A stretch of DNA of 52,712 bases from a virus. Shown piece after piece: positions 1-52,052 of this stretch (its first letter is position 1; each line of letters opens with the position of its first letter). Under the pieces are notes generated by a model that was not told the origin of the DNA, did not search any database, and was given only the letters and a program-made list of their open reading frames with translations. The stretch covers positions 1 to 52,712 of IMG/VR virus record IMGVR_UViG_3300021520_000236; one strand, given 5' to 3'. Position numbers and translations under genes: made by a program.

Positions 1-1014
1 ACCCCGGAAGACGAGAAAATCCGGGCGACGGTGCGCGAGATGAGCGCGAAGACGGAACGTCTCAAAACCGAGATTTCCAAGGCGATCATCGGGCAAAAGG
101 AGATCGTGTCCGAGCTGCTGACCGCGATTATTTCCAACGGGCATGTTCTGATGATCGGCATGCCGGGGCTGGCCAAAACGATGATGATTCGCACCGTTGC
201 CGAGGTGCTGGACCTGCAGTTCCGCCGCATCCAGTTTACCCCGGATCTCATGCCATCGGACATCACCGGAACCGATATCCTTGAGGTGGACGAGTCGAGC
301 GGGCACAAGGAATACAGGTTCATCAAAGGCCCGATTTTTACAAACATCCTGCTCGCCGACGAAATCAACCGCACTCCGCCAAAGACTCAGGCCGCTCTGC
401 TCGAGGCCATGCAGGAACACCGCGTGACAGCCGCAGGGGAGACGTATCCGCTCGACCTGCCGTTTTTTGTACTCGCGACCCAGAATCCACTCGAGCAGGA
501 AGGGACATATCCTTTGCCGGAAGCGCAGCTCGACCGGTTCATGTTCAGCATCCATGTCGATTACCCCAGCGAAGCCGACGAGGAAACGATCGCCAGGGTG
601 ACCACGCGGCCGCAAAACGTGACATTCGAAAAAATCCTCCGCGCGGATGAAATCCTGGAACTCCAGCGCGTTGTGCGCGATCTCCCGATCTCCGATCACG
701 TTATCAAATACGCCACCCGGCTCGCGCGTTCGACCCGTCCGTCCGACCCCCGCGCACCGGACTTCATTAAGAAATGGATCCACTGCGGTGCCGGTCCCCG
801 CGCGACCCAGTACCTCGTCATCGCAGCAAAAGCCCGCGCCGTCGTGGACGGGCGGCTCCTGGTAACATCGGATGACGTGCGCGCTGCCGCGAGCCCCGTC
901 CTCCGCCACCGGATGTTCACGAATTTCACGGCTGATTCCGAAGGCATGGATACGGACAAGATCGTGAAGAAACTTCTCGATGCCGTGCCGGAGCCCGACG
1001 AGCGGGATTACTGA
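1..1014 (+). CDS. MoxR-family AAA+ ATPase (5' end outside window)
   Basis: The frame is open to the left edge, so the true start is probably upstream; a GTG at 31 is the first start codon inside. Counting from that GTG, Walker A GMPGLAKT is at about residues 43-50, Walker B LLADE at 107-111 followed by the MoxR signature INRTPPKTQAALLEAMQE, and the sensor-type ATQNP at 149-153. MoxR ATPases are chaperone-like AAA+ proteins, usually encoded beside DUF58 and von Willebrand A-domain genes. This is the only clear host protein gene in the window. Its partners would lie downstream but are displaced by the prophage that starts at the following tRNA, or they lie upstream. Family assignment is firm; cellular role is not. 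Confidence 0.93.
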   Translation, partial: TPEDEKIRATVREMSAKTERLKTEISKAIIGQKEIVSELLTAIISNGHVLMIGMPGLAKTMMIRTVAEVLDLQFRRIQFTPDLMPSDITGTDILEVDESSGHKEYRFIKGPIFTNILLADEINRTPPKTQAALLEAMQEHRVTAAGETYPLDLPFFVLATQNPLEQEGTYPLPEAQLDRFMFSIHVDYPSEADEETIARVTTRPQNVTFEKILRADEILELQRVVRDLPISDHVIKYATRLARSTRPSDPRAPDFIKKWIHCGAGPRATQYLVIAAKARAVVDGRLLVTSDDVRAAASPVLRHRMFTNFTADSEGMDTDKIVKKLLDAVPEPDERDY

Positions 1015-12912: not shown

Positions 12913-12913
12913 A

Positions 12914-37664: not shown

Positions 37665-37671
37665 AAAAATT

Positions 37672-38015: not shown

Positions 38016-38016
38016 A

Positions 38017-38730
38017 TTAGTCTTTCTTTGGGTGAGGATCGGTGATGGTGATGTTCGGCCTACGGCAGCGGATGCCTTTGGTGACAGTAGGCCATGGCAA
38101 GTAGCAAAGCTCTTTTAGAAGCCGGAAGTTCTGGCATACATCCCGCCATTTTCCATCCCAGCGGACCTGATCGCCTTCCTGCAACTTTGTGCCGGGTTCA
38201 AGCTCGTTGGGATCGCGTTCAGAGTCGAAGTGTTTGCCGCATCCGCCTTTGTCTTTTTGGCAGTAGTGCCCGAAGTAGTGAGTTCCATCGAAGTCGATGT
38301 CTCTGGTCCATGTATAGACGTGTTCCTTGCTGTGGCATTGCGGGCACGATATGGCCGAACATGCGATGGAGCGAACCACAGGCCGCTCGGGAGTTTCATT
38401 TGGATTCATAGGTTTTTCTTTCTGCGGCCCGTGGCCGCTCATCTGGTCGTTCGACAAAATACCGCGCACTTCCGAGAGCGGAATGTCGCTGCCTTTCCCA
38501 GATGAGATATGCACCGGAAACGCCCGATTTGAGAAGTCCATGAGACATCCCTTTGAGCAGATGTCCCAATCCTTTTGCCGGTTTAGTTCCACGAGTTGCG
38601 TTGAGCCTCCATGTTCCTTCAGCGAATACCAGCCGGAGAACGGATGCCCTCCGATCCAGCCGGAGCCTTCGTCGGTGACTTCCTTCCCGCAGACATCGCA
38701 TTTCAGAATTGTTGATTTTCGAGTTGCCAT
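38017..38730 (-). CDS. Multi-cysteine zinc-binding protein (cassette gene)
   Basis: A 237-residue protein with two metal-binding parts: N-terminal LKCDVCGKEV and DICSKGCLMDF, C-terminal SCPQCHSKEH, HYCQKDKGGCGKHF. The ATG at 38730 lies 7 bases after the box of attC-like site D. The halves resemble separate phage zinc-finger proteins and may be a fusion. Function unknown. Confidence 0.68.
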   Translation of the reverse strand: MATRKSTILKCDVCGKEVTDEGSGWIGGHPFSGWYSLKEHGGSTQLVELNRQKDWDICSKGCLMDFSNRAFPVHISSGKGSDIPLSEVRGILSNDQMSGHGPQKEKPMNPNETPERPVVRSIACSAISCPQCHSKEHVYTWTRDIDFDGTHYFGHYCQKDKGGCGKHFDSERDPNELEPGTKLQEGDQVRWDGKWRDVCQNFRLLKELCYLPWPTVTKGIRCRRPNITITDPHPKKD

Positions 38731-38736
38731 AAAAAT

Positions 38737-38838
38737 GTCGAACCAAGTCGTCCAGCGAACCCCTACCCGCCAGACGGTTGTTTTTGATTTTCGGGATTCT
38801 CGCCAGCGGGCAGGGGCCGCTGACGACCGACGTTCGAC
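38737..38838. repeat. attC-like site D
   Basis: Left box GTCGAAC (38737-38743), right box GTTCGAC (38832-38838), perfectly complementary. GTCGT-C-CAGCG...CCCCTACCCGC pairs with GCGGGCAGGGGCCGCTGACGAC; the extra C is at base 16 (38752). Length 102. The gene at 38763-39260 ends inside it. Confidence 0.87.
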
Positions 38839-39260
38839 AAAATATGGGATGCGATTTCGTTGACCTCACCGCAGGAAAGGCAGTCCTCGTGGCATCCTGC
38901 GTAGGATTCCGTTTTGATCTTTTCCATCGCGGCGCGAAACTGGCCGTTTCGTTTCCAGTGCCGGTCGCGTTGTGCGAGAGTTGCGATCAGGTCCGCTTCG
39001 AGCTTGTCCCCGGCATTGATGAGCCTCGCGTTCTCGGCGGCGAGGTTGTCGCGCTCTTTCCTGTCCTCATCGCGAATAATTTCCCCATCGCGCCACATGT
39101 TCAACTCGGTTTCGATGGAGGCGTTCTCGGATTCAACCTTGTAGTATTTCGCAACGATGTCTGCGGCGGCGAGCAATGCGGGGACCTTCCCTGCCAGCGT
39201 TCCTTTTTTGAGCGTGGCGGCTAGCTCGCGCAGGGTGGTTTCGGTTTGGTTGGTGGTCAT
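38763..39260 (-). CDS. Coiled-coil hypothetical protein, first gene of the array
   Basis: A 165-residue protein with a central coiled coil (ERDNLAAENARLINAGDKLE) and ESYAGCHEDCLSCGEVNEIA. Its C-terminal HILSNVGRQRPLPAGENPEN is encoded by attC-like site D. Its start is not preceded by an attC-like site, so it is either fixed to the helicase operon or follows an unrecognised insertion site. Confidence 0.65.
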   Translation of the reverse strand: MTTNQTETTLRELAATLKKGTLAGKVPALLAAADIVAKYYKVESENASIETELNMWRDGEIIRDEDRKERDNLAAENARLINAGDKLEADLIATLAQRDRHWKRNGQFRAAMEKIKTESYAGCHEDCLSCGEVNEIASHILSNVGRQRPLPAGENPENQKQPSGG

Positions 39261-39320
39261 ACGTTCAAAAAGTCCCGCCGCGCTGGCCGTGAGGGGTTGT
39301 GATATTCAATGTCATAAATG

Positions 39321-40841
39321 CTATAATAACTTTGCTGGTTCCGGTTTCGTGTAGATCGGGTTGTATCTGTTGAGCCTTCCCCGGATTATCACCCTGTCTC
39401 TTTCGGCCTTTGCGAGAGCATCGTAGGCGACGGACTTCCCGCATCCGGTGAGGTCTTTGATCTTGTAAAGGAGTTCTGTTCTCGTGATCTGATCCTCGAA
39501 AAGATCGGCAACGTCTTGGCTTGAAAGTGCGGCCTTTTTATTCCCTGGCGCTTTCTTTTCGAGCCCTACGGACTGCCGGAACTCCTCCGGGTCGAAGTCG
39601 GGGTTAATCCGGTAGATCCCAACTTCCTCATCAAGCATCACGCCCATCTCCGGGAACTGTGCGCCGTTGTTGTTCTTCCCGCATGCCATTACCATCAGGC
39701 GCGGGTTGTCCGGGTCTTGAGGTGCCAGGTTCACCTGTGCACGGGTCCATGCGTAGAGAGCTTTTGAGTTGCGCCCGAAAGATGATTTGTCCCATCCTAC
39801 GGCCTTTGCGGCTCCGAGTTTTCCGGTAGCCGAGTGATGCACGACGACAGGGACACGCTGCGGGTTCCCCTTCTTGACCGCCCGAGAGAGAGCTGTAACA
39901 ACCTGCTTCATGTCACGGTCGTTGTTCAGTTCCAGACTGGTGAAGGTATTGAGCGGATCGAAACAAACGAAGTGCGGGTCGTGGTCGGCAATCGCTTGCT
40001 CGATATGCCGGATCTCGTCAGTCTCCAAGTCGAGGAAGGTATCTTCGTCCTTCTCTACCGTGTGGATGACAAAGCAGTCGTCGATAAGAAGCGTATCCTC
40101 TTTTTGAAATCCCAACCCTCTCACCATCTTGGTGATGTCAGTTTTTAGGCGGCGGTTTGAGTTCTCCGTTTGGAATACGAGCCACTTCTTCCCGCGAGCG
40201 TGTGTTTCAATCCCGAGGAACGGGCGCCCGGTTATCATGCAAAAAGCTAGCTGCATGAGGAGTCTGCTTTTCCCGATCCCTCCGGGGCCGAGGATCGTTA
40301 CCGGCTGGCTGGCGGCGATGATCCTATCCCCGAAATAATTGTCGGACTCGTCGAAGTCCATATTCACGAGTTCTGTAATCGTGCGGATGGACAGGCGGGA
40401 CTTCTTGCTTTTTACCGTGTGGTTGAGCTGCTTGAAGTTCAGCGCGATCTCTGTCGGGTCTTCGCCCTTCTTCACCGCTACTTGGATTTGCTGTGAGACG
40501 GTCGAGTTGTGCGCGTTGACCTTGTGCTTCCAGAGGGTTTCGCAATATCCCTCGAAGACTGCCGGGACCGAAGACTGCCCCTCGTTTATCAGGGCATCCG
40601 CGATGGCCTGGTTCACCTCCGGGGAGCCGCCAGCAAAGAAGCTCGCGATGGAAAGGTAATCGAATGTCTCCCCGTTCTCGTGCCGCCTTGCAAGTTCTGC
40701 GAATACCTGCCGGTAATGGTCCGCGACGAACGATTCGGTAGTGACCTCGTATTTGTCAACGATTCCCCAGCGGTCTTTCCCTGACAGGAGCCCGGCGAGG
40801 ATGCCGAGTTCGGCGGCTTGTGTCGGCCAGTTGTTCTTCAT
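39321..40841 (-). CDS. Hexameric helicase, RepA/DnaB-like (AAA_25), right module
   Basis: A 506-residue protein: DnaB-N-like start (ELGILAGLLSGKDRW, DHYRQVFAELARRHENGETF), RecA-like core with Walker A GPGGIGKS at residues 185-192, PHFVCFDPLNTFTS as Walker B, VPVVVHHSATGK, and a C-terminal winged-helix segment (TRTELLYKIKDLTGCGKSVA). It replaces the DnaB-type helicase of the left module. It is the main replication gene of the right module. Confidence 0.87.
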   Translation of the reverse strand: MKNNWPTQAAELGILAGLLSGKDRWGIVDKYEVTTESFVADHYRQVFAELARRHENGETFDYLSIASFFAGGSPEVNQAIADALINEGQSSVPAVFEGYCETLWKHKVNAHNSTVSQQIQVAVKKGEDPTEIALNFKQLNHTVKSKKSRLSIRTITELVNMDFDESDNYFGDRIIAASQPVTILGPGGIGKSRLLMQLAFCMITGRPFLGIETHARGKKWLVFQTENSNRRLKTDITKMVRGLGFQKEDTLLIDDCFVIHTVEKDEDTFLDLETDEIRHIEQAIADHDPHFVCFDPLNTFTSLELNNDRDMKQVVTALSRAVKKGNPQRVPVVVHHSATGKLGAAKAVGWDKSSFGRNSKALYAWTRAQVNLAPQDPDNPRLMVMACGKNNNGAQFPEMGVMLDEEVGIYRINPDFDPEEFRQSVGLEKKAPGNKKAALSSQDVADLFEDQITRTELLYKIKDLTGCGKSVAYDALAKAERDRVIIRGRLNRYNPIYTKPEPAKLL

Positions 40842-41032
40842 TTCTTGGCCTTCGGGATGACGTGACGGTCAACGTAGTTTTGCAGGTGCTCTTTCGCTCT
40901 CTCCGCGTCAACGCGACCCTCTTCCGTGTCCGGGTAGTCGAAGCACTTGATTGGAAGAGGCGCGGACCTTTCCAGCCTGTGACCGGCTGGCCCGTGCTCT
41001 GTCCATAGTTGTAGGCGTAGGGAGATTGTCAC
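40838..41032 (-). CDS. Small hypothetical protein, possibly a broken gene's 3' part
   Basis: Sixty-four residues from GTG (TISLRLQLWTEHGPAGHRLE; AKEHLQNYVDRHVIPKAKK). Upstream the same frame still reads coding-like text (KSTVPRVREIAAEPFRRV) but lacks a start. The adjacent short frame at 41046-41111 offers a start and N-terminus, so a single-base frameshift may have split one gene of about 90 residues. Confidence 0.5.
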   Translation of the reverse strand: MTISLRLQLWTEHGPAGHRLERSAPLPIKCFDYPDTEEGRVDAERAKEHLQNYVDRHVIPKAKK

Positions 41033-41045
41033 GCGGCGAAAAGGT

Positions 41046-41111
41046 TCAGCTGCGATTTCGCGGACACGAGGAACCGTTGACTTTGGTTTTGATGAAATCG
41101 TCGTAGTTCAT
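41046..41111 (-). pseudogene. Short frame that may be the displaced N-terminus of 40838-41032
   Basis: ATG overlaps the preceding stop (ATGA), giving NYDDFIKTK and a stop after 21 codons. Moving one base within the AAAACCAAAG stretch would join it to the frame KSTVPRVREIAAEPF of the next gene. Either a frameshift mutation or a tiny leader peptide. Confidence 0.4.
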
Positions 41112-41344
41112 TTATCGGCCTTGCGTTTCCGGCAACGATCAATCGCCTGCCGGATTGCTTTTCTTTCTTCCGGGTCAAACGCGGCGATCTTCACGTCCGG
41201 GAAGTTTTGAAATTCGGGGAATGTTTCGATTATTACGGTGATGCAGCCTCCCGGCTTTCCGAGGTGGTCTAGCATCGGTTGGATGCGCCTTGTCCATTCA
41301 ACCTGGTTGAATAGCGGCGGGCATATTTGGAATGTCAGGCCCAT
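41108..41344 (-). CDS. Small hypothetical protein
   Basis: Seventy-eight residues (GLTFQICPPLFNQVEWTRRI; FDPEERKAIRQAIDRCRKRK). No family recognised. It lies in the replication operon between the RuvC-like and helicase genes. Confidence 0.6.
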   Translation of the reverse strand: MGLTFQICPPLFNQVEWTRRIQPMLDHLGKPGGCITVIIETFPEFQNFPDVKIAAFDPEERKAIRQAIDRCRKRKADK

Positions 41345-41354
41345 CGGGAGTCAG

Positions 41355-41816
41355 TCAGGCGTTGCAGAACTTGTCACGCGCATAGGCGGCAACGGCGAGA
41401 GCGGCCCAAACGTGCGACTTGATACCGTAAGTCGGTCCCGGTTCTTTCTTCGTTCCTTGCGGTCCAAGGCGGTCAATAAGTGCCTGCCGTATATTGGCGT
41501 CTTTCGCCCGCATGCTGCCGCAGAGATGAATCTTGATGTCCTTTCGGAAGATCAGTTCAAACCCTGAGTCAAGCGACCTCGCTTCCATGAACCGGCCAAT
41601 CCAAAGGCATGTTTCAAAAGTCTCGCGTCCTACCGGCATTCCATATGAGGCGATCATCTCGCAAGCGACGAGTGCCGGCCACGGTTTGAACAGTCTGCCA
41701 GATAGCCAGTCGCGCACGGTCTGGTTTTCCTCAAATCCGTGCGATGCAATTCCGTCATTGTCAAGAATGACGAACGCGCTATGCGTCGTGCCTGGGTCAA
41801 TAGCCAAGATAGTCAT
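41355..41816 (-). CDS. RuvC-like Holliday junction resolvase (right copy)
   Basis: A 153-residue RNase H-fold nuclease: TILAIDPGTTHSAFVILD holds the first aspartate, ALVACEMIASYG the glutamate, and KSHVWAALAVAAYA the final region. The expected acidic residue at the end is not obvious, so activity is uncertain. It parallels 11403-11885 in the left module but is clearly divergent. Confidence 0.78.
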   Translation of the reverse strand: MTILAIDPGTTHSAFVILDNDGIASHGFEENQTVRDWLSGRLFKPWPALVACEMIASYGMPVGRETFETCLWIGRFMEARSLDSGFELIFRKDIKIHLCGSMRAKDANIRQALIDRLGPQGTKKEPGPTYGIKSHVWAALAVAAYARDKFCNA

Positions 41817-41992
41817 ACAAAGTTCAAGTCGTGCTTACGGGCGATCCAGTCAGACGCCAGAATAAATCCTTCCCTTACCCGGCATTCGCTGCGGGGAAGC
41901 CAAGCGGTAACTCTCCGGTGCGCTTGGGCTTGGAATATCAGGACAGCTTTCGCGGTCTTGCGGATTATCTGGCATCTGACTTTCACGCTCAT
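41813..41992 (-). CDS. Small basic hypothetical protein
   Basis: Fifty-nine residues (SVKVRCQIIRKTAKAVLIFQ; ECRVREGFILASDWIARKHD). The start shares one base with the HTH gene's stop, and the stop overlaps the RuvC-like start. No family recognised; it is a single-domain beta/alpha protein by pattern. Confidence 0.6.
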   Translation of the reverse strand: MSVKVRCQIIRKTAKAVLIFQAQAHRRVTAWLPRSECRVREGFILASDWIARKHDLNFV

Positions 41993-42204
41993 CAGAGTTG
42001 TTCCACTGAATTTGTGGAAAGGAATGTCTCGATGTGGCGAGGGAGAATAAGAACCTTTCCACCTATCTTGCAAAATCCAATCCTTCTGGCCGCAAGATGC
42101 GCGTCAATAGTCCTAAGCCCCATGTTGAGCATGGATGCAGCCTGTTGGCGGGTGTAAGTTGTTATTCTCGATACTTGTTCGATTTGTGTGTTTTGTTTTT
42201 TCAT
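41992..42204 (-). CDS. Excisionase-like helix-turn-helix protein (HTH_17)
   Basis: Seventy residues. RITTYTRQQAASMLNMGLRT-IDAHLAARRIGFCKIGGKVL and ILPRHIETFL is the classical HTH_17/excisionase pattern. In mid-operon it may be an excisionase (for an integrase now elsewhere) or a regulator. Confidence 0.75.
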   Translation of the reverse strand: MKKQNTQIEQVSRITTYTRQQAASMLNMGLRTIDAHLAARRIGFCKIGGKVLILPRHIETFLSTNSVEQL

Positions 42205-42473
42205 CAGAGTTTCATTTCGGTTTGCTGCGGGTCGCGGACCATGAACTCGGTTTCGTCGGTGTGCTTCACCGCGTATCCGATCTTAATTTTGACCGCTCTG
42301 CTTTGCCCGGAGTGGTCGAGAGAGATTCCGAGGGACACGTTTCCGGATTGTCCCTCAGTCTCTCCGATCATCTTTTGGATGCCGGTCCAGTTGGCTTCCA
42401 GAATGTCGGAAAGCATGGCTTGGACTTCGGCGAGCTCCTTTTCAGAAAAGGTCTGTTCGGTTGGTTTGCTCAT
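42204..42473 (-). CDS. Conserved phage hypothetical protein
   Basis: Eighty-nine residues: a helical N-terminus (FSEKELAEVQAMLSDILEAN) and beta-strand C-terminus (VSLGISLDHSGQSRAVKIKI). No named family assigned. Overlaps the HTH gene by one base. Confidence 0.6.
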   Translation of the reverse strand: MSKPTEQTFSEKELAEVQAMLSDILEANWTGIQKMIGETEGQSGNVSLGISLDHSGQSRAVKIKIGYAVKHTDETEFMVRDPQQTEMKL

Positions 42474-42476
42474 TTT

Positions 42477-42911
42477 TTAGATTCCTACTTTTTGTTTGTG
42501 TGCGATTTCACGGTGATGCTTGAAGCACATCCAGCGAACCGCCAATGGTTTTGAATAGTCGAGGTGGTGAGCCTGTGAGTTGGCTTCTCCGCAAACTTCA
42601 CAAGGCATCCGGGTAATCCGTCCGTCTCTGATTGCGTTTGATACAGCCGATAGCGCCTTGCATTTCTGCGGGTTTTGAATCCGGCGCTTTTTGTTGTATT
42701 CGCGCAGTTGCGCTTTTCTGTGTTCTGACTGAAACCTTGCCTTTTCGTATGCTACTACCTTCGCTCGCCCTTCTTGAGACAAGTATCTGGCCGTCACGTC
42801 CAACTTTGTGCATTCCTTGCACTTGTTTAAGTGGCCGTCTGCCATCTGCGGATGGGGATAGAACTCAGAGAGTTCTTTTTCCCCACCGCATTTGAAGCAT
42901 TTCTTCGACAT
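42477..42911 (-). CDS. HNH-like endonuclease with zinc ribbon
   Basis: A 144-residue protein. CFKCGGEKELSEFYPHPQMA and CKECTKLDVTARYL form the N-terminal zinc part; CEVCGEANSQAHHLDYSKPL and WMCFKHHREIAHKQ form the HNH-like end. This two-part architecture is frequent in phage genomes. It may be a mobile nuclease inserted between SSB and downstream genes or may process phage DNA. Confidence 0.78.
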   Translation of the reverse strand: MSKKCFKCGGEKELSEFYPHPQMADGHLNKCKECTKLDVTARYLSQEGRAKVVAYEKARFQSEHRKAQLREYNKKRRIQNPQKCKALSAVSNAIRDGRITRMPCEVCGEANSQAHHLDYSKPLAVRWMCFKHHREIAHKQKVGI

Positions 42912-42946
42912 TACAGGTTGCGTTTTTAACGAGGTATTCGCGCCTC

Positions 42947-43489
42947 TCAGTTAAAAGGTATGTCGTCTTGTCCTTCGGGGGCCGCGTTCGCCGGACCGTC
43001 AGCCTTCGCCGCTGGTGCCGCCGTGCCGCCGTTGACCGTCTTGGCGATAGCCTTGGCCTTGCGCCCCATCTTTGAGATGAGAGAGGCAACTTTAGCCCCG
43101 TCCATCTCCTTGCCGCAGCCGCCCGCGTTGTTCAGCCATTTGGCTTTGATGCGCGTCTCGCCGTTGTAGGTTTCGGACTCGGCCACGATCTCGCATTCCG
43201 AACCGGCAAAAGAGAACGTGCCGTTGTGCAGCGCGTCCATGTCGCCGTTCCATTGCGGGAACGTCTTGCAGAGGTTTTCGATGGTCCGGTCAAAGGCGGC
43301 GTCCGAAAGCCATCCTGTATAGACGATCTCCTTGCCTTGCTGGTCCCCGGCCTCTGTGACTTTGCACGGGATGCGGATGAATGGCGTTTGCTTCTCGCCA
43401 GCCTCGCCAAACCACCCGTTGCCGGGTTGCTTGACGACGCAAAGGTAGCTGCCGGCCTTGTTGACGTATTTGTTGTTTTCTTCGCTCAT
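42947..43489 (-). CDS. SSB-like protein, right module
   Basis: A 180-residue protein: beta-rich TPFIRIPCKVTEAGDQQGKE and FAGSECEIVAESETYNGETR, an alanine-rich linker, and the tip GQDDIPFN like the SSB acidic tail. It follows the recombination ATPase as in the left module, but the two SSB-like proteins are only distantly similar. Likely coats single strands for recombination and replication. Confidence 0.7.
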   Translation of the reverse strand: MSEENNKYVNKAGSYLCVVKQPGNGWFGEAGEKQTPFIRIPCKVTEAGDQQGKEIVYTGWLSDAAFDRTIENLCKTFPQWNGDMDALHNGTFSFAGSECEIVAESETYNGETRIKAKWLNNAGGCGKEMDGAKVASLISKMGRKAKAIAKTVNGGTAAPAAKADGPANAAPEGQDDIPFN

Positions 43490-43492
43490 GTT

Positions 43493-44386
43493 TTATTTGG
43501 TTTTTGGTTGGAGTGATTGGAGTTTCGCGATCCCGCCTTTCACGCGGTCGGGCGGGAGCGAAGTGACATCCACCTTTGCCCACTTCTCGCGATCGGCTGC
43601 GGGCATGTCGGCGGTTTTTAGGAGGGCGAGGTATTGCTCGCGGAGTTTGTCTGGCCGGTTGGCTTGAACTGCGGCGTCGAAGTCTTCCCACGAGAGCGGG
43701 AGAGTTTCTGGGAGTCCCAAGCGGTTCTTGGCGTCCCATCCTGGGCTCCATTGCGTGTGGATGATCCGGTCGCCTCCGATCACCTTTTCGCGCTGTTCGC
43801 CCTTCTCCTTTGTCTTGAAAACCTCATAGACCGCAAACAAGCACGCATCCGGCCACTCGCGGAGAATCCCGGTGAATCCGCGATGTCCCTTGCTTTCATA
43901 ACGATCCCAAGTCGTTCCGTCCGGGGAGTTGAAAGGCTTGATATGGACGTGCGAGAGGAGAACGATTCCCATTTTCTGCTGCTGGCGCAGGTGGTCGAGT
44001 TTGGAAAGAAGCAACACAAGCTCTTGCTCCGCGACTTTGTAGCCCTTCCCGTAGCCATAATCCTCGATGCTAGCCTTGCTGTCGCGGGTGCAGACAAACG
44101 AATGGATTGACCGTTCCAGCCAGTCCATCGTGTCAATCACAAGCGTCTTGTATTCCGAACCGTTAGCTGCCAGTTCGTCAACGATAGCCGTGACATCCGC
44201 AAACGTCTCAGGTGTGACGCGGGCAACGTGATCCAATCCGGTCAAGCCGTCCTCTTGGCTAATGAAGAGAGGGAATGGGGCGGATGCTCCAAACGTGCTT
44301 TTCCCGATTCCTTCCGGACCTGCGAGTGACACGCGGGGAGGCAGGCTCTCTCCACCGCGTTTGATCTTACTGAGGATTGTGCTCAT
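43493..44386 (-). CDS. RecA/Sak4-like recombination ATPase, right module
   Basis: A 297-residue P-loop ATPase: Walker A GPEGIGKST (about residues 23-31), the strand FPLFISQEDGLTGLDHV, Walker B KTLVIDTMDWLE, and GYGKGYKVAEQELVLLLSKL. Same family (PF13479) as 4968-5885. Encoded between the permuted nuclease and the SSB-like protein, so the three-gene recombination set is kept, with the nuclease moved ahead of the ATPase. Confidence 0.85.
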   Translation of the reverse strand: MSTILSKIKRGGESLPPRVSLAGPEGIGKSTFGASAPFPLFISQEDGLTGLDHVARVTPETFADVTAIVDELAANGSEYKTLVIDTMDWLERSIHSFVCTRDSKASIEDYGYGKGYKVAEQELVLLLSKLDHLRQQQKMGIVLLSHVHIKPFNSPDGTTWDRYESKGHRGFTGILREWPDACLFAVYEVFKTKEKGEQREKVIGGDRIIHTQWSPGWDAKNRLGLPETLPLSWEDFDAAVQANRPDKLREQYLALLKTADMPAADREKWAKVDVTSLPPDRVKGGIAKLQSLQPKTK

Positions 44387-44389
44387 AGA

Positions 44390-45319
44390 TTATTTTGTGA
44401 TGAATGTTTTCAAGTAGGCTTCGCATCCGGCGTGGAATGACGATCCAAGCCGCAATGCTTCCGATGTCTCCGCGATCTTCTCTGTCGGGGTTTCGTATCG
44501 AAGTTGGTGATACCTTGCGCACTTACGCAGGGCCGAAAGTCGGGAGTTGGTGAGAAAGTCCTTCCCCTGTTCGGTGATAAGCAGCTCCGCGTGTTTGGTG
44601 ACTTTCTCTCCGTAACGGATGCCGTCCACGGTCGCGCGGCCAGCGCAGAGGTCGAAGTATTCGCATTGCCCGTAGGCCGTGCATGCGGACGGGTTGCGCG
44701 GCCAGAGGTTATGCTGGCGGGAGTAAAGGATCTGCTTGGAAAGCTCCCAGGCGTCCTTGCAGTAATCAACCAGGTCGGAGTCTGAGCGGGGGATTTCCTT
44801 CTGGACAAAGAAGGCGGCGGGATTCTCGCGGATGTTTTCCAAGCAACGGTCAAAGAACTCCTGCGGAGTCTCCGGGTTCGGTTTGTCTTTCCGAAGCGGT
44901 TTGATTCCCGGCTTCTTGGCGACATCATAGACCACGCTGCGGACATCCTGACCGCCTTGCATCACGGCAAGAACATATTTGCTGATCTGTCCATCCATCG
45001 CGAGACGCGCCCAATAATCGCTTTCGGGCTCGACTGACTCGCTGGTTGTCTTGTGTTCCAAGACTTTGATTGCACCGGATGTCTTGTGCTTTAGAACGCC
45101 GTCGATCTTCCCGGCTTCAACGAATGTCTTGGACGGGCTTTCGGTTTCCGGGTTGAGGAGCGGGAATGTAAATTCAAGCTCCACGCTGATAACCTCGTGC
45201 TCCGCGAGCACCGGCCCGATGTTTTCCACCCATCCGACAAACATGGCGTGCGCCTTGGCGGTCGAGTGGTCGTATTCTGCTTTTTGGAAAGTTTCCTCTC
45301 CTGGGTATGGTCTTGTCAT
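44390..45319 (-). CDS. Circularly permuted PD-(D/E)XK nuclease, Cas4/RecB-like
   Basis: A 309-residue protein. The catalytic core is at residues 70-92 (GKIDGVLKHKTSGAIKVLEH, D73, E88, K90) and QISKYVLAV follows. A cysteine triple CTAYGQCEYFDLC is at 213-225. The segment LTNSRLSALRKCARYHQLRY with ALRLGSSFHAGCEAYL, which in this family is N-terminal and supplies the fourth cluster cysteine and a core histidine, here lies at 256-303, the extreme C-terminus. The chain thus starts in mid-domain (TRPYPGEETFQKAEYD), consistent with circular permutation. ATG 45319 chosen over an upstream frame overlapping the zinc-ribbon gene. Confidence 0.8.
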   Translation of the reverse strand: MTRPYPGEETFQKAEYDHSTAKAHAMFVGWVENIGPVLAEHEVISVELEFTFPLLNPETESPSKTFVEAGKIDGVLKHKTSGAIKVLEHKTTSESVEPESDYWARLAMDGQISKYVLAVMQGGQDVRSVVYDVAKKPGIKPLRKDKPNPETPQEFFDRCLENIRENPAAFFVQKEIPRSDSDLVDYCKDAWELSKQILYSRQHNLWPRNPSACTAYGQCEYFDLCAGRATVDGIRYGEKVTKHAELLITEQGKDFLTNSRLSALRKCARYHQLRYETPTEKIAETSEALRLGSSFHAGCEAYLKTFITK

Positions 45320-45323
45320 AAAG

Positions 45324-45530
45324 TTAGAGCTGTCCCCGGCGTTGTAGCCGAAGGATAAATTCGGAAGATTCGATGGCGTCTTGCAATTTGGCCTTGGCGG
45401 TCGCGTATTGGTTCCCGCAACCGATAAGTGCTCCCTGTGTCTTGGAAGGGAGAGATCCCCAGCAAGGTTCGCAGAACTGCTTGGTTTCCTTCTTGGCCCC
45501 TCCACACGAGCATTTCCCAGTCGTGTTCAT
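45324..45530 (-). CDS. Small zinc-ribbon protein
   Basis: Sixty-eight residues: CSCGGAKKETKQFCEPCWGSLP holds four to five cysteines in a CxC...CxxC pattern, followed by a helical tail (YATAKAKLQDAIESSEFILR). Overlaps its neighbour by ATGA. A known kind of small phage protein of unknown function. Confidence 0.7.
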   Translation of the reverse strand: MNTTGKCSCGGAKKETKQFCEPCWGSLPSKTQGALIGCGNQYATAKAKLQDAIESSEFILRLQRRGQL

Positions 45531-45733
45531 TTGTGGGGAAAGCTGGTTTTGCTGGCGGATTCGATGTCGCGGAAAAACTTCTCCGTCTCGACTTGCTGGC
45601 GGCAGGCGTCGTATGTCCCGCGCTTGACCCCGTGCCGGTAGCCTTCGTTGTAGGCGTCTTTAACGAGCGCGTTGACTACTGCCGTGATCCCGACGATGGA
45701 AAGCAGGCCGGATAGGATGAAAATGGCAATCAT
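45527..45733 (-). CDS. Conserved small membrane protein C (right copy)
   Basis: Sixty-eight residues: IAIFILSGLLSIVGITAVVN, DAYNEGYRHGVKRGTYDACR and TEKFFRDIESASKTSFPHK. It aligns end to end, without gaps, with 4745-4954. The strongest single sign that left and right early modules are relatives. Confidence 0.78.
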   Translation of the reverse strand: MIAIFILSGLLSIVGITAVVNALVKDAYNEGYRHGVKRGTYDACRQQVETEKFFRDIESASKTSFPHK

Positions 45734-45894
45734 CGTGTGCGGACGTTGAGCGTGGACGGCGGGACTTCGCTGGCGATTGTCGCGGCGTGGAGTCGGTCCT
45801 GTTCGCGGGATAACTTTTGCTGGTATTGGCCGATCAGGAGAACGGTCCCGAGGGTAAGCCAAATCAAGAACAAGATGGCGTTGTGCTTGTTCAT
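45730..45894 (-). CDS. Conserved small membrane protein B (right copy)
   Basis: Fifty-four residues: transmembrane segment AILFLIWLTLGTVLLIGQY, helix QQKLSREQDRLHAATIASE, and tail VPPSTLNVRTR. Homologous to 4578-4748 and in the same position before protein C. Overlaps on both sides. Confidence 0.7.
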   Translation of the reverse strand: MNKHNAILFLIWLTLGTVLLIGQYQQKLSREQDRLHAATIASEVPPSTLNVRTR

Positions 45895-46061
45895 TTGCAG
45901 AACATCTCCTGGTAGTGGGCGAAAAGGTCGGCCCAGGTGACTTCGATCCGCCTGCGGTTGTCGGGATCACCGAGTCTCCACGCGAGGGCGAGGGTCTGGA
46001 CGAACGATCCGCCATGCTCCTCCATCGCGCGGACGGCCTTGATTTTTTCCTCGATTTTCAT
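45891..46061 (-). CDS. Small hypothetical protein
   Basis: Fifty-six residues (KIEEKIKAVRAMEEHGGSFV; RRIEVTWADLFAHYQEMFCK). It sits between membrane proteins A and B, where the left module has no gene, so it is an insertion or a loss relative to that module. ATGA overlaps at both ends. Confidence 0.6.
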   Translation of the reverse strand: MKIEEKIKAVRAMEEHGGSFVQTLALAWRLGDPDNRRRIEVTWADLFAHYQEMFCK

Positions 46062-46300
46062 TCTTCCTCCCCGCTGATTCCACCGTCTCGCATGTCGTTA
46101 AACCGGCGCTTGGCGTTTGTGGCTTCTTCGCGGTATTCCTGATCGTGTGTGTCGTCGCGTTCTTTGTCGCGTTCGCTGATAAGGTTCTCGGCGTTGCGGG
46201 CGATGGGGAGTGTGACTTGCGCCCAATCGTAGGCTTTGCGTGTCATAAAGACCGCCGCGAGGAGAACGACGCAGTTCGGTAGGAGGTAGTTGTTTTTCAC
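46058..46300 (-). CDS. Conserved small membrane protein A (right copy)
   Basis: Eighty residues: KNNYLLPNCVVLLAAVFMTR, AYDWAQVTLPIARNAENL, and tail RRFNDMRDGGISGEEE. Homologous to 4357-4578, with a six-residue insertion (SERDKE) before the shared DDTHD. Confidence 0.77.
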   Translation of the reverse strand: MKNNYLLPNCVVLLAAVFMTRKAYDWAQVTLPIARNAENLISERDKERDDTHDQEYREEATNAKRRFNDMRDGGISGEEE

Positions 46301-46536
46301 TTCCCGGCCTCCATTGCTTTGGCCCGCGCCCGTTTCAGCCGGCGAGACATGACACTCGTGAACGTGTTGGCGTCCGGGTGGACGTTCTGGCCTTTCTCAA
46401 TTAGAAAGGCGTGGATCGCCCGGAACTTGTAGCCTTTCGCCCGCATAACTTCGACGGCGCCAAGAATGGTATCGGTAGGGTATCGGCCAGCCGGGGGTAG
46501 AGCGTTTGCCGCCTCGATGAGTTCGGCGGCGCTCAT
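46297..46536 (-). CDS. Small hypothetical protein, possible DNA binder
   Basis: Seventy-nine residues; EVMRAKGYKFRAIHAFLIEK followed by FTSVMSRRLKRARAKA could be a helix-turn-helix with a basic end. It occupies the slot of the left HTH gene (3787-4023) without visible similarity. Confidence 0.55.
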   Translation of the reverse strand: MSAAELIEAANALPPAGRYPTDTILGAVEVMRAKGYKFRAIHAFLIEKGQNVHPDANTFTSVMSRRLKRARAKAMEAGK

Positions 46537-47189
46537 TGTTTCAAACGGGCGTGCCCGTATTTGGTTTGAACGTGGCCGGATTTCTTGGCTTCGCTCAGGT
46601 GGTAGTAGAATGTCGTCTTGCTCACATTCAACATCCCGGAAAGCTCAACGGTGTTCTGCCATTCCGTTGTGAGGATTTCCAAGACGTTGAAACCTGATTT
46701 TGCCGTTTTGGTAGCCTTGCGGGTTGGCGCTTTGTTCTTCCAGACGAGAGAACGTGCCGTTGTTGCCGCCGCATCCGCGCCGATGTCCATTGACCGGAGC
46801 CAAGCGAAGATGTCCGCGAAGTCGCGGGCAACCGGGTATCGGTCGAAGTCGAGGGAGGATTGGAGGTAGAAGCCGTTCTGCCGGATCGCCGGGAGGACTT
46901 CCGATGTCACCCACAGCCGGAAGGCGACCGCCTGCGGCTTCCGGGATTTGAAGATCAGCGCGTAGAGGCCGGATTCGCTGATGAGGTTGTAGGATTGTGC
47001 GCCATTTCCGGCCCGACCCTCAGGATTACTGAGGGTCATCTTTTCGAAATCTTCAAGAGAGCGGATAGCCTCAGTGGTGTTCCCGATTTCCAGCACCCGG
47101 CAGACATCCGCCGCAACGAACCAGGGCGAGTTCTCCCGGTCAACAACCCGGACGGGGTTTTCTTTGAAGTCGAATACTTGGAGGCTCAT
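46533..47189 (-). CDS. BRO-N domain antirepressor-like protein
   Basis: A 218-residue protein. Bro-N domain over the first 110 residues (PWFVAADVCRVLEIGNTTEA, RSLEDFEKMTL, LISESGLYALIFKSRKPQAV, FRLWVTSEVLPAIRQNGFY). The C-terminus is a winged-helix-like segment (TVELSGMLNVSKTTFYYHLS). Such proteins act as phage antirepressors. It occupies the position of Rha in the left module. The start at 47189 overlaps the stop of the third RHH gene. Confidence 0.88.
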   Translation of the reverse strand: MSLQVFDFKENPVRVVDRENSPWFVAADVCRVLEIGNTTEAIRSLEDFEKMTLSNPEGRAGNGAQSYNLISESGLYALIFKSRKPQAVAFRLWVTSEVLPAIRQNGFYLQSSLDFDRYPVARDFADIFAWLRSMDIGADAAATTARSLVWKNKAPTRKATKTAKSGFNVLEILTTEWQNTVELSGMLNVSKTTFYYHLSEAKKSGHVQTKYGHARLKQ

Positions 47190-47356
47190 TTCCATGCCCC
47201 TTTCTCCGCGAGAAACTCTTCGAGCACCTGAGTTACCACGGATGACCGTGTGCGGCGTTTCTGTTGCGCGAATTTTTCGAGGGCCATCAAAAGATCTGGT
47301 TTAAGGGATATTCCCGCGCTCTTGGCTCTCATCTCTTTTGGAAGTGGACGGCTCAT
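47186..47356 (-). CDS. RHH regulator 3, right module
   Basis: Fifty-six residues: AKSAGISLKPDLLMALEKFA then KRRTRSSVVTQVLEEFL, a short ribbon-helix-helix protein. The stop overlaps the BRO gene start, and the start overlaps the stop of RHH 2. The left module has no third regulator. Confidence 0.75.
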   Translation of the reverse strand: MSRPLPKEMRAKSAGISLKPDLLMALEKFAQQKRRTRSSVVTQVLEEFLAEKGAWK

Positions 47357-47541
47357 TTTGAGGATGTCTGAGGTTCACTTAACCCTTGAAGTAAAAAAAT
47401 AACGTGCTGGTTGACAGAACGGCAGCTTGCGCGAGCTTCCCGGACCAACTTCGTTTTGATGTCACGGGGTATCATCAAGGATAGTGGCAAGGCGCTTGCC
47501 CGTTTCGGCTGCTTTTTTTGTGGCGGCGAGGATTGCTTCAT
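47353..47541 (-). CDS. RHH regulator 2, right module, with operator at its 3' end
   Basis: Sixty-two residues: basic N-terminus, strand ASALPLSLMIPRD, helices IKTKLVREARASC and SVNQHVIFLLQGL. Its last residues (GLSEPQTSSK) are encoded by an operator copy (47372-47384), exactly as the left regulator 2 carries operators near its 3' end. It overlaps RHH 1 by 80 bases. Confidence 0.72.
   Translation of the reverse strand: MKQSSPPQKKQPKRASALPLSLMIPRDIKTKLVREARASCRSVNQHVIFLLQGLSEPQTSSK
47372..47384. promoter_or_regulatory. Right-module operator copy 2
   Basis: GGTTCACTTAACC, identical over AGGTTCACTTAACCC to the copy in the promoter at 47731-47743, in the same orientation. Outer arms GGTT/AACC are symmetric. 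Lies inside RHH gene 2. Binding by the adjacent RHH proteins is inferred. Confidence 0.68.
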
Positions 47542-47707
47542 AGTCTTTTACTGAGATTGGAATGTTTGCGGTTTTTGCTGCGAGAATTTCAATCACCAGT
47601 TCAGACAATGAAATTCCCTGAGACTTCGCCATACGAACAAGGCGAACCTTGATCGTGCGGGGGAGAGAGAGGGAGAATGGCTCCTTGTCTGGTGAATGCT
47701 GGTTCAT
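47462..47707 (-). CDS. RHH regulator 1, right module
   Basis: An 81-residue protein: PFSLSLPRTIKVRLVRMAKS then GISLSELVIEILA, a ribbon-helix-helix domain with a helical tail (AILAATKKAAETGKRLATIL). ATG at 47707 preferred to an upstream in-frame GTG, which lies in the operator. It is the first gene after the right early promoter; the predicted leader is about six bases. Confidence 0.75.
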   Translation of the reverse strand: MNQHSPDKEPFSLSLPRTIKVRLVRMAKSQGISLSELVIEILAAKTANIPISVKDYEAILAATKKAAETGKRLATILDDTP

Positions 47708-47720
47708 TGAAACAAGTGCA

Positions 47721-47749
47721 ATATAAACAAGGTTCACTTAACCCGTCAA
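47721..47749 (-). promoter_or_regulatory. Right early promoter with operator
   Basis: On the minus strand, -35 TTGACG (47749-47744), 17-base spacer, -10 TTATAT (47726-47721). The operator GGTTAAGTGAACC fills the spacer (47731-47743). The preceding AATAATTGTTGACGG is shared with the left promoter (2841-2853), so the promoters are homologous but the operators differ. Confidence 0.75.
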
Positions 47750-47794
47750 CAATTATTTTGAATTATTTTTCATGCCCCAGAATCCCTGTGTTTA

Positions 47795-48388
47795 TCAGGG
47801 TTTGACGGGATCAAGCGGTGATGCTTCGACAAGATCACCCTTGAAAAACTGGCCACGGATATCTTCGGCCACAATGCTTGATAACGGAAGAGTTGATCCG
47901 CTATCCTCGTCTCCGGGAGAACCGGGATCGTATTCAGCCTTCATCTCAACATGCAGAGGAGATGCCGACGACAGAGAGAAGAAAAGCAGGGATTTTACCT
48001 TTGGAAATTCCTTGTTCGTTTCAATGATGCTCGCCGCTTGCTCTTTGGAGCACCTCAATTCTACCCAGTAGCCAGCGTCAGCACTGAAAAACGCAAAAAT
48101 CCCCTTTGGCGTCCGATATATGCCAAAATCATCGGACGAGACCCAATAAAGTTGTTTTGGCGCATCTGCAATCCTGTCCTGTATCTCAATCGTGAATCCA
48201 TCCCGCTTGTATATGTCGTCAAAAGCCCCAGACCGAAAATCAATCGCATCGGGATGCTTGCCCTTTGCTGCGGCACGCGTTTTGTCCGCTTCAGTTTGCT
48301 TTTTTGGAACTACTTTTGCGGATCTCTCGCACGATGTAGCAGCAAGCGCGATTGCCGCTGAGATGATGATTCCAATGTATTTTCTCAT
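47795..48388 (-). CDS. Lipoprotein, probable lysogenic accessory gene
   Basis: A 197-residue protein with lipoprotein signal (IIISAAIALAATSC; lipobox AATSC) and a mature part with GIYRTPKGIFAFFSADAGYW and SLLFFSLSSASPLHVEMKAE. ATG 48388 overlaps the previous gene's stop. It lies outside the regulated early operon but on the same strand, typical of superinfection-exclusion or conversion genes; function unknown. Confidence 0.65.
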   Translation of the reverse strand: MRKYIGIIISAAIALAATSCERSAKVVPKKQTEADKTRAAAKGKHPDAIDFRSGAFDDIYKRDGFTIEIQDRIADAPKQLYWVSSDDFGIYRTPKGIFAFFSADAGYWVELRCSKEQAASIIETNKEFPKVKSLLFFSLSSASPLHVEMKAEYDPGSPGDEDSGSTLPLSSIVAEDIRGQFFKGDLVEASPLDPVKP

Positions 48389-48726
48389 GGCTTCGCATCT
48401 TTCCAGAACATCACCGCCGCAATTACCAGGCTCGCCACGGCGATCTTGTCGAGAGTCTGCCACATATCACGCTTGAAATGGAATTCGATTACCGGATTAA
48501 ACAGAATCGCCTGAGCCCCGAAGATCACGGTCCACGCTACCCGGCCAATCAGGTTTGCTGTGAAAGCAGAATAGAGGAAACCGGCACAGCATATCCACCG
48601 CAGAGAAGTATAGAACCCATGAGGATTGCGCTCGGTGACAGCGCTGGCGAGCATGAGGAACATCAGAGCCGCGAAAATATAGAATCCCCACACAAAGCCT
48701 CTGATAGTCGATTGTTCGGAATCCAT
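48385..48726 (-). CDS. DUF6804-like membrane protein
   Basis: A 113-residue protein with about four transmembrane segments (FVWGFYIFAALMFLMLASAV, GFYTSLRWICCAGFLYSAF, WTVIFGAQAILFNPVIEF, IAVASLVIAAVMFW). The GFYTxLRW and FGAxAxLFNP blocks suggest the DUF6804 family of small membrane proteins. Forms a pair with the lipoprotein. Confidence 0.65.
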   Translation of the reverse strand: MDSEQSTIRGFVWGFYIFAALMFLMLASAVTERNPHGFYTSLRWICCAGFLYSAFTANLIGRVAWTVIFGAQAILFNPVIEFHFKRDMWQTLDKIAVASLVIAAVMFWKDAKP

Positions 48727-48798
48727 TTTGATTCACAATACTGATAACACCCTTACCAATGATCCAGCAAAATGTGCAATGTTCGCTCAAATCTCGCG

Positions 48799-48900
48799 CC
48801 CGGAAATCTCGCAGATTTCCGGGAAATTTTCCGGGGTTAATCAATTAATGGATAGATGTTTATGAGAATCTTCCGGGAACGAACTTGGTCCCGGAAATCT
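48799..48900. repeat. Inverted and direct repeats, CCCGGAAATCT family
   Basis: A perfect hairpin CCCGGAAATCT-CGC-AGATTTCCGGG (48799-48823), then AGAATCTTCCGGG (48865-48877) and another CCCGGAAATCT (48890-48900). These lie in the 300-base non-coding stretch 48727-49029 at the right end of the prophage. They could be recombinase arm sites, an attachment region or operators for 48385-48726. AACTC/GAGTT (48914-48936) is a further weak repeat. Confidence 0.55.
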
Positions 48901-48956
48901 GTCCGGAACATTTACAACTCATTCACTATCAACGAGTTAGGGAATAACGCATAAAC

Positions 48957-49001
48957 AAAGAATGCAGCGCCGCTGCTCCGCGCGGACGCTGCATTCTTTT
49001 T
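48957..49001. terminator. Bidirectional intrinsic terminator
   Basis: AAAGAATGCAGCG (48957-48969) pairs with CGCTGCATTCTTT (48987-48999) over 13 bases, followed by further T residues. It serves the leftward gene 49030-49227 and any rightward transcript. It may mark the prophage-chromosome border. Confidence 0.85.
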
Positions 49002-49029
49002 GTGCGGCATTTTTTTAATAAGTCAAGAT

Positions 49030-49227
49030 TTATTTTTTGGCCAGCGCCCTCGCCACGCGCTTCTTGAGCGCCTGGGCGGCGAGCCAAGCCGGATCACTGG
49101 CCTGGAGAGCATACCAGTCCGCCTTGCGCTTCGCCTCGGCCTGCCGGAACTCCTCGTCGGTCCAGTATCTCCCCATATACCAGACGGTGTGGTTTTTCCG
49201 GTAATCCGCTTTCTTCCTGAACGGCAT
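49030..49227 (-). CDS. Small basic hypothetical protein
   Basis: Sixty-five residues (FRKKADYRKNHTVWYMGRYW; AQALKKRVARALAKK). The ATG at 49227 gives the compact form; an upstream in-frame start adds six residues. It stops just before the terminator. Could be the last phage gene or the first host gene; undecided. Confidence 0.5.
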   Translation of the reverse strand: MPFRKKADYRKNHTVWYMGRYWTDEEFRQAEAKRKADWYALQASDPAWLAAQALKKRVARALAKK

Positions 49228-49346
49228 GGATGCAGTCAACCACACTTCCTAAAAGGAATCAAGTTGAATCAAAAACGGGAAATGCCGTAAATATCCGCCG
49301 TAACTCATCCGGCATAGATTCACAATCTCTTGATTATGAAGGGGAG

Positions 49347-49419
<73 letters not shown>

Positions 49420-49651
49420 ATTTGCCGGATTCCCTCTGTAGATTGATCCGGTTTCGGTGTCAACGAGATTTTTCACCGAGGCGATTTGACCCTCTATGGC
49501 TCTGTATAGAATTTGAGGTTGCCACCCCTCCGTGCCACCCCAATTCGCAAGAAACACGGTGGGGGGGGCCGATTTCCAGATTTCCGAAGAAAAATGGAAA
49601 AAAGATGGGGGCGAGGGGGTTGACATTTTCGGGTTTCCAATCAGTAGGGGC

Positions 49652-50764
49652 ATGAAAAGAAAATCATGCACACAGTTGACCGGACTCTCCCGAAAGAAAA
49701 CCGGAATTTACCAATACCGTCCACAAGTCAACGGGAAGAGGACGGCATTCTCTCTCAGGACAAAAGATTTCGAAGAGGCGATACACAGGGCACTTCTGAT
49801 TAAGGATACGACTCCTGTGCAGACCAAGGATAGTCTCCTTTCGCTTGTTGAGGAGTTCGTCCGGTTCAAAGAAAACAAAGGCAAGTTCAGTCGGTTCAGC
49901 GTTTCCGACAAATACGGTATGCTCAAAAGATTCGCCACCTTTTGTGGTGACAACATTCCGGTTGGGAGCATGAATCCGAAAAAAATCGGTGAGTTTTTTG
50001 CCGATTGCGAGAATCGCTCTTTGGCGCAATCTACCTTGTCAGGCTACAAAACCAACATTCAGAGCTTTTTTTCGTGGTGCAACGAGGAAAAACGACTGCA
50101 TGTTCATCATTTTATATCAGCGTTAAAAGAGTTCGAATTTGTGTCAGAGGCGAGGACTGATTACATCCCACAGTCGGAAATCAATCGCCTCTTAAATGAA
50201 TGTGACGACGAGGTTGTAAAATACGTGCTGATCTGTGGTGCCTTTCTTGGAATGCGAAAAAACGAGATCATTGAGTCAAGGCGGGAGTGGTTCGATTTTG
50301 ATCGTCAAATCTGTCGTGTTCAGAATTGCAATGCGAAAAAGGCGCAAGCTGAAAGCCTTGATCTGTTTCGCGTGAAAAACAAAAAAGAGAGGGATGTTCC
50401 GATCATTCCCGAATTGCAGGAATGGTTGGCGAGGTTTGTTGAAGGGAAAGAATATTGTCTGGCAAGTGGAAAAAGGCGCGGGAAATCAAAGTATCGCTTC
50501 AACTACGAGAAGAGGTTCAAGACTTTTCTAAAAAAGAAAGGGATGCTACATGTTTCAAGCCACACACTGAGGCATTCATTTGCTACAAATCTAGCAATAG
50601 GGAATGTTCGGATTGAAAAAATAGCTTCAATGCTAGGGGATTCGATCAAAACAACAGAAAAACATTACGCGAGGTTTATCCCAGACCAATCATCAGTAGG
50701 AATTCTATCGTTGGGACTTGTGACTCAGGAATCTCCTATTGAATCAGATAGTTGGAGCATCTAG
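49652..50764 (+). CDS. int: Tyrosine recombinase (integrase 2)
   Basis: A 370-residue recombinase: arm-binding N-terminus (SRKKTGIYQYRPQVNGKRTA), SAM-like core-binding domain (FADCENRSLAQSTLSGYKTN), catalytic R in FLGMRKNEI, SSHTLRHSFATNLA and LGDSIKTTEKHYARF. ATG 49652 follows AGGGG; the frame is open 120 bases further upstream. DNA is clearly more A+T-rich than the prophage, so it belongs to another element extending to the right. No integron-integrase-specific insert is seen. Confidence 0.92.
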   Translation: MKRKSCTQLTGLSRKKTGIYQYRPQVNGKRTAFSLRTKDFEEAIHRALLIKDTTPVQTKDSLLSLVEEFVRFKENKGKFSRFSVSDKYGMLKRFATFCGDNIPVGSMNPKKIGEFFADCENRSLAQSTLSGYKTNIQSFFSWCNEEKRLHVHHFISALKEFEFVSEARTDYIPQSEINRLLNECDDEVVKYVLICGAFLGMRKNEIIESRREWFDFDRQICRVQNCNAKKAQAESLDLFRVKNKKERDVPIIPELQEWLARFVEGKEYCLASGKRRGKSKYRFNYEKRFKTFLKKKGMLHVSSHTLRHSFATNLAIGNVRIEKIASMLGDSIKTTEKHYARFIPDQSSVGILSLGLVTQESPIESDSWSI

Positions 50765-51015
50765 GAGACTCCGATAGCAATAGGCTCTTCAGACTCTATA
50801 TGAATACCCGATTTGAAATACAGGAGAACTTTATCAATATCTTCACGCCAATACAATGTCATCTTATGACGTTTTTCAAATGGCTTGAGGTGATATTCGA
50901 CCTCAAGAATCTGGAGTATTCTTTCACCACCAACGTAGGCAATAGTATCTCGTCTATTCAATATTTTCGCTATTGGCGAATGTTCCCAAGGTGCAACATA
51001 AGTCCTATTTTTCAT
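50761..51015 (-). CDS. Excisionase-like DNA-binding protein
   Basis: Eighty-four residues (SPIAKILNRRDTIAYVGGER; YWREDIDKVLLYFKSG), resembling the HTH pattern in which a final Y-RREDID segment forms the wing. It overlaps the integrase gene's 3' end on the opposite strand. Preferred over a longer rightward frame (50752-51258) that has no coding features. Confidence 0.55.
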   Translation of the reverse strand: MKNRTYVAPWEHSPIAKILNRRDTIAYVGGERILQILEVEYHLKPFEKRHKMTLYWREDIDKVLLYFKSGIHIESEEPIAIGVS

Positions 51016-52000: not shown

Positions 52001-52052
52001 ACTGCTTATGGCATTTCATTGAGAATCGAGCTGCCCGTGATAAGTATTTCAA

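Follow-up and report, generated by a model that had tools for sequence, protein, structure and literature searches.

Can a nuclease of the RecB/Cas4 kind start in the middle of its own domain and still be a working enzyme? This question is raised by a gene at 44390-45319 (minus strand) of IMG/VR virus record IMGVR_UViG_3300021520_000236, of which the whole 52,712-nucleotide stretch, referred to here as the window, was analysed. PMC3466216 reports 5'-3' exonuclease activity for a Cas4-family protein whose cluster is held by four cysteines, a single one close to the N-terminus and the other three close to the C-terminus; AddB has the same arrangement, which acts as a 'staple'. A sequence-only reading of the window had claimed that the segment normally found at the N-terminus of this family occupies residues 256-303 of 309. 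DNA methyltransferases and the HD domain fused to Cas10 provide known cases of permutation, and a permuted RecB/Cas4 nuclease was found described nowhere in the literature searched, which covered few subscription journals. With the integration of sequence comparisons, predicted structures and gene neighbourhoods, the gene very probably codes for a Cas4/AddB-like nuclease that is circularly permuted by nature and would resect DNA for the annealing protein Sak4; we infer both the activity and the metal cluster of the nuclease.

The reading frame runs from an ATG at 45319 to a stop at 44390, giving 309 amino acids plus the stop, and was assigned to the PD-(D/E)XK (RecB/Cas4-like) nucleases through its matches to Pfam PDDEXK_1 (E 2.6e-13, residues 28-187 aligning from position 94 of the profile) and PHROG 1218. 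The stop of a small ORF just upstream (45324..45530, minus strand; PHROG 24410, E 1e-5) precedes the nuclease ATG by 4 bases, a position that speaks against an N-terminal extension. An extension from the upstream frame was also considered and discarded, as that frame overlaps another small ORF and the profile of the moved segment has no match there. Residues 1-225 (44645..45319; this and all following features on the minus strand), delimited by profile-profile alignment with hhalign, correspond to the standard middle and C-terminal part, now placed first, and comprise the third helix, the catalytic beta core, the QxxxY helix and the cysteine triple. Within this part lie the catalytic D73 and E88-H89-K90 (45050..45103), the QxxxY motif formed by Q111-Y115 (44975..44989), and C213, C219 and C225 (44645..44683), normally the C-terminal three of the four metal-cluster ligands. 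The old C-terminal HxEL (H243-L246) and a fusion linker (residues 247-255), recognized by comparison with standard-order relatives, follow at 44555..44593, and the moved segment (residues 256-306; hhalign and an alignment of 73 permuted rows) closes the protein at 44402..44554 with LTNS, C267 and GxxxHxxxE (G292, H296 and E300).

In the ORF translation, LTNSRLSALRKCARYHQLRY begins at residue 256 and GSSFHAGCEAYL finishes at residue 303, exactly where the sequence-only reading had placed them, and both the core (AGKID..., LEHK, QISKY) and the triple C213-C219-C225 precede this segment. The first fifth of a standard chain thus forms the last part of this protein (about residues 254-309). Profile searches and profile-profile alignment agree with this displacement of LTNS..C..GxxxHxxxE behind the catalytic core and cysteine triple. 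Residues 13-225 match PHROG 1218, annotated as exonuclease, only from its position 90 onwards (E 8.6e-22), and residues 250-307 match positions 84-139 of the 501 of PHROG 69 (E 2.1e-6); by these match positions, the N-terminal piece of the family is absent from the beginning of the chain and found at its end. Furthermore, a segment profile built from permuted C-termini and run against the standard-order relatives recovers their N-termini with domain E-values down to about 5e-14, and the likeness is therefore not attributable to chance.

When the profile of 38 permuted proteins was aligned with that of 18 standard-order proteins using hhalign, two matches were obtained, one pairing permuted positions 17-301 with standard 228-480 (E 5.3e-60) and the other pairing permuted 303-359 with standard 169-224 (E 4.7e-14). 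The matches abut in both profiles, in swapped order and with almost nothing left over. Most standard-order chains end at or shortly past a conserved H/N-x-EL; in the permuted proteins, HxEL leads into a linker of 9-16 residues, beyond which comes LTNS (37 of 38 rows, those in which the pattern was found), and the new N-terminus aligns just past the GxxxHxxxE helix of the standard chain. As judged from these alignments, the protein fits a circular permutant, with two homologous parts exchanged, the old ends fused and the new ends lying in a loop.

Conservation was assessed in an alignment of 73 permuted frames, numbered as in the window protein. D73, E/D at 88 and K90 were each found in 72 of 72 rows (one of the 73 being gapped), and Q111, Y115, C213, C219, C225, C267, G292 and H296 in 73/73, whereas position 300 varies, having E in 56 rows, D in 10 and another residue in 7 of the 73. 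According to these columns, the catalytic residues are kept in both parts, and the claim that all active-site parts and the four cysteines are present extends to every permuted row having the position; a strict D..ExK text pattern, too narrow compared with the alignment columns, recovers only 56/73. In 6 of 8 pairs with defined dS, the dN/dS of the moved segment was 0.06-0.30, with several dS values above 1 or undefined, indicating that this segment is under purifying selection. The motifs of the four-cysteine RecB family are all found, namely D...(E/D)xK, GxxxH, QxxxY and four cysteines, but their order is not, as the lone cysteine and motif I come after the triple. On this motif evidence, the protein is homologous to the four-cysteine RecB family as a permuted variant and not as an ordinary member.

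The distribution of this order was examined starting from 23 relatives obtained in a scan of viral contigs, with more added by profile scans, and the six frames of every fetched locus were scanned with shared-part and segment profiles built from both kinds of protein. Among 168 distinct frames with the shared part, the segment lies after it in 73 and before it in 93, and the 2 frames without a segment correspond to a locus cut by the contig end (L072) and to a broken reading frame (L160); some frames are near-identical, and at under 93% identity the first set amounts to 39 permuted and 5 standard-order proteins. Two of the three checks suggested in the sequence-only reading concern this distribution. 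Other proteins with the permuted order, including two isolated phages, account for the 73 frames, and the tandem-duplicated intermediate, with the segment at both ends, occurred in 0/168 distinct frames from all fetched loci. Segment matches (E under 1e-3) without a core match were limited, among the fetched loci, to L118, which has the standard order with its core below threshold, and L160, in which the segment is in the preceding frame. In the latter, a standard-order relative (L160:2674-3987), segment and core occupy two consecutive frames split by a stop, corresponding either to a broken gene or to a sequencing error.

The isolates are two Tunturiibacter phages with circular complete-genome records. 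The permuted order is also present on one contig of a Chthoniobacterales MAG, the only one confirmed of 73 candidate stretches in a genome collection; in the phylum of this MAG (G001), 9 of 387 genomes matched and only G001 was permuted. A plasmid search for the permuted nuclease gave no match, and the only matches in a profile search of the PDB by sequence were two antibody sequences (E 0.5 and 0.7), which we regard as accidental. The permuted nuclease is thus a widespread virus family residing within a Sak4 recombination operon, a point that the sequence-only reading had missed. Its preservation as an intact gene, rearranged in the same way in many different viruses, suggests a genuine, functional rearrangement rather than a broken gene. 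As a separate observation, one 94 kb viral contig (IMGVR_UViG_3300020229_000001) carries two different permuted nucleases (L031 and L035) about 63 kb apart.

An AlphaFold2 model of the window nuclease, computed as a monomer with 38 permuted sequences, had a mean pLDDT of 93.5 and a pTM of 0.87. Ten-residue blocks over 251-309 averaged 96, 95, 96, 81, 95 and 90, by which the moved segment is not predicted to be loose, and helices were predicted within it at 258-266, 268-276 and 287-304. The earlier suggestion that a folded permuted enzyme is plausible therefore gains a confident model that includes the segment; its docking into the old N-terminal site is the part that we infer, from pLDDT, pTM and motif conservation. 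Comparison with solved structures was carried out with a sequence-order aligner. Model residues of about 1-230 matched AdnA, ACE1, MGME1, RecE and AddB with VIA Z of about 7-10, with the terminal segment outside these alignments, consistent with a predicted RecB-like fold over that range.

Compared with solved RecB-family chains, the permuted model begins mid-domain: it matched AdnA 7sjr_A with Z 9.6, ACE1 9iab_A with 1..229 on 75..267 (Z 8.1), and MGME1 5zyu_A with 21..201 on 199..336 (Z 7.8). The model of a standard-order control, L021, was weaker (pLDDT 75.4, pTM 0.72, 14 sequences) and yet covered the solved chains from their start, with 1..292 on 123..336 of MGME1 5zyu_A (Z 12.0), 1..303 on 1..266 of ACE1 9iab_B (Z 11.9), and AdnA 9np6_A with Z 12.7. 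That a weaker model outscores a stronger one is expected if the window protein is permuted. In a viral structure library, A0A6J5NSY1 matched the permuted model over 341 columns with TM 0.79, and from this structural match it is likely another permuted member.

The immediate neighbours of the permuted nuclease are Sak4 and SSB; CRISPR Cas4 proper takes part in spacer acquisition together with Cas1-Cas2, and its gene usually sits beside cas1/cas2. In the window, the next gene downstream (43493..44386, minus strand) encodes a Sak4-like single-stranded DNA annealing ATPase (PHROG 124, E 4e-35; Pfam AAA_24, E 3e-39), and it is followed at 42947..43489, on the same strand, by a probable single-strand binding protein with a weak match to PHROG 378 (E 0.053). 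In the first set, every permuted locus (37/37) has Sak4 downstream and in the same orientation; in the full set, Sak4 is downstream in 70 of 73 frames, and in the other 3 the sequence stops less than 1 kb further on. The SSB candidate of the window has a homologue downstream in 23 of the 37. In 7 of 10 standard-order loci examined, Sak4 also lies within about 210 bases after the nuclease. Nuclease and Sak4 are thus adjacent in one orientation, as in a recombination pair. To our knowledge, nuclease activity is known for no member of the permuted family. According to PMC5928155, the Sak4 of phage HK620 anneals single strands in an ATP-dependent manner and is stimulated by the SSB of the same phage, and it is from this work and the Cas4/AddB paper that resection feeding Sak4 annealing is proposed.

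In the arrangement that we favour, the old C-terminus, with the cysteine triple and HxEL, would be joined through the short linker to the old N-terminal segment carrying LTNS-Cys-GxxxHxxxE, and the new chain ends would lie in the loop that connects the GxxxHxxxE helix to the helix after it. The chain is predicted to fold as one compact domain. With the moved segment in its old N-terminal place, Cys267 would complete a four-cysteine metal cluster with Cys213, Cys219 and Cys225, and His296 would join Asp73, Glu88 and Lys90 in the active site. Because the first and last parts are held by the cluster 'staple' in standard members, the old ends are close and their fusion would cost little. Such a protein would act as a DNA-end exonuclease, supplying the neighbouring Sak4 annealase and SSB with single strands during phage recombination.

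Alternative readings were weighed against this one. The C-terminal segment could be the start of a truncated second nuclease copy behind an N-truncated first copy, a product of decay; tandem copies are the expected mechanical path to permutants, and standard relatives with matching ends do exist. Against decay, the order and motifs are kept in 73 distinct frames, dN/dS of the segment is well below 1, none of the 168 frames has two segments, and the stop shortly past the segment is also conserved, and with order, stop and motifs conserved in 73/73 rows this reading was rejected as highly improbable. An assembly or binning artefact, by which two gene pieces were joined in the wrong order, might be suspected in a record without end repeats and with two replication modules; nevertheless, the same order occurs in many independent contigs, in the Chthoniobacterales MAG and in the two isolated phages deposited as complete genomes, which contradict an artefact and leave its probability practically negligible.

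More room is left for a different activity or a different packing, both unlikely. RecB-family proteins have varied roles, and the permuted nuclease could be mainly a structure-specific or defence-related endonuclease instead of the resecting exonuclease of a Sak4 pair. This is improbable in view of the exonuclease annotation of PHROG 1218 and of the tight, near-universal linkage to Sak4, both in permuted loci and in their closest standard-order sisters. Somewhat less probable still is packing of the segment in trans, with one chain of a domain-swapped dimer completing the active site of its neighbour, which the 9-16-residue linker could permit and to which a model of the monomer only is blind. 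The monomer model is nonetheless confident as a whole, and in standard enzymes one metal cluster brings the old ends close (PMC3466216), so packing in cis needs no swap.

The permutation likely originated through tandem duplication, after which the copies were fused in frame and lost sequence at the two outer ends. The standard order is taken as ancestral, since the wider RecB group has it. Trees of a first set were built with one row per near-identical group and without the incomplete L064 and L084 (56 rows), and L117 and L118, with long branches, were further dropped for a 54-row tree. These recovered two well-supported permuted clades, one with the window and the other with the Tunturi phages. 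The 56-row shared-part tree gave one order change (support 57/0) and the 54-row combined tree gave two. In a larger set, from which one row of <170 residues was dropped and in which rows over 72% identical were merged (166 to 111), two changes were obtained from the shared part and one (support 65) from the combined tree. A single permuted clade is not rejected (AU p 0.292). That the chain is broken and joined at the same positions in the two clades speaks for a single event, though only as an argument. A bolder reading, which we regard as doubtful, holds that this is the first described natural RecB/Cas4 permutation, selected because new ends beside the GxxxHxxxE helix alter holding or gating by Sak4/SSB, and that it arose repeatedly at one and the same loop, given that the trees do not join the two permuted clades firmly.

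The closest known counterparts are the standard-order phage nucleases beside Sak4 (L018, L021, L022, L087, L090, L095 and L097), homologous over their full length when the parts are compared separately. They share the same cysteines and the same operon position before Sak4, but have the segment at the N-terminus and chains ending at or near N/H-x-EL. The 'exonuclease' proteins of Tunturiibacter phages Tunturi_1 and Tunturi_2 (XJP11549.1 and XOB77130.1), so annotated and nothing more, are about 33% identical to the window protein and have the same permuted order and four cysteines, with Sak4 and SSB annotated downstream as in the window; a term search of the main text of the Tunturi phage paper (PMC11924767) gave no hit for the exonuclease or Sak4, and its passage mentioning permutation is about statistics. 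The Cas4, AddB and DUF3799 four-cysteine nucleases share D..ExK, QxxxY, GxxxH and the four cysteines with the permuted nuclease, and the permuted model has structural matches to AddAB, Cas4 SSO0001 and 3l0a. In Cas4 and AddB, as described in PMC3466216, one cysteine is N-terminal and three are C-terminal, whereas here the lone cysteine follows the triple. Lambda exonuclease, RecE and MGME1 have a PD-(D/E)XK exonuclease fold like that of the permuted nuclease, but in standard order, and the standard-order sister model, unlike the permuted one, covers their chains from near the N-terminus. Lambda exonuclease, too, acts together with a partner annealase (PMC7496540).

The conservation of these residues across diverse viruses in a natural permutant suggests that the cluster and active site are indispensable but the order of the chain is not, and makes the protein a convenient system for testing how such a cluster assembles when its ligands are synthesized in a different order. 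Searches and annotation that depend on order can split such proteins or overlook them, and the permuted nuclease with its Sak4 constitutes a new pair to try in recombineering. Some permuted members carry C-terminal tails, namely ...QPSLF in L016 (ends 6035), ...QPELTLK in L017 (ends 1358) and ...DPALGLF in L024 (ends 6086), which we take to resemble sliding-clamp binding motifs.

The window has a second nuclease of this kind at 5882-6892, and its standard order, previously proposed, was borne out by eye, with one cysteine and a GT-x-x-D stretch followed by D...DLK and then a cysteine cluster, and with support from Pfam DUF2800/PDDEXK_1. In this protein, Asp (GTKLD) seems to occupy the place of the motif-I His, and DLK that of ExK. 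Among the ORFs scanned, duplicated modules occupy 1279-2343, 4968-13831 and 37600-50764, with two each of integrases, Sak4-nuclease-SSB sets, DnaB-like helicase genes and endonuclease VII-like genes; terminase, portal and major head protein are single. The window probably comprises two neighbouring integrated elements, the right one being a remnant or satellite-like. To the right of the second integrase, GC falls from about 0.56 to 0.44 at 50001-52500, perhaps marking a host flank or another element.
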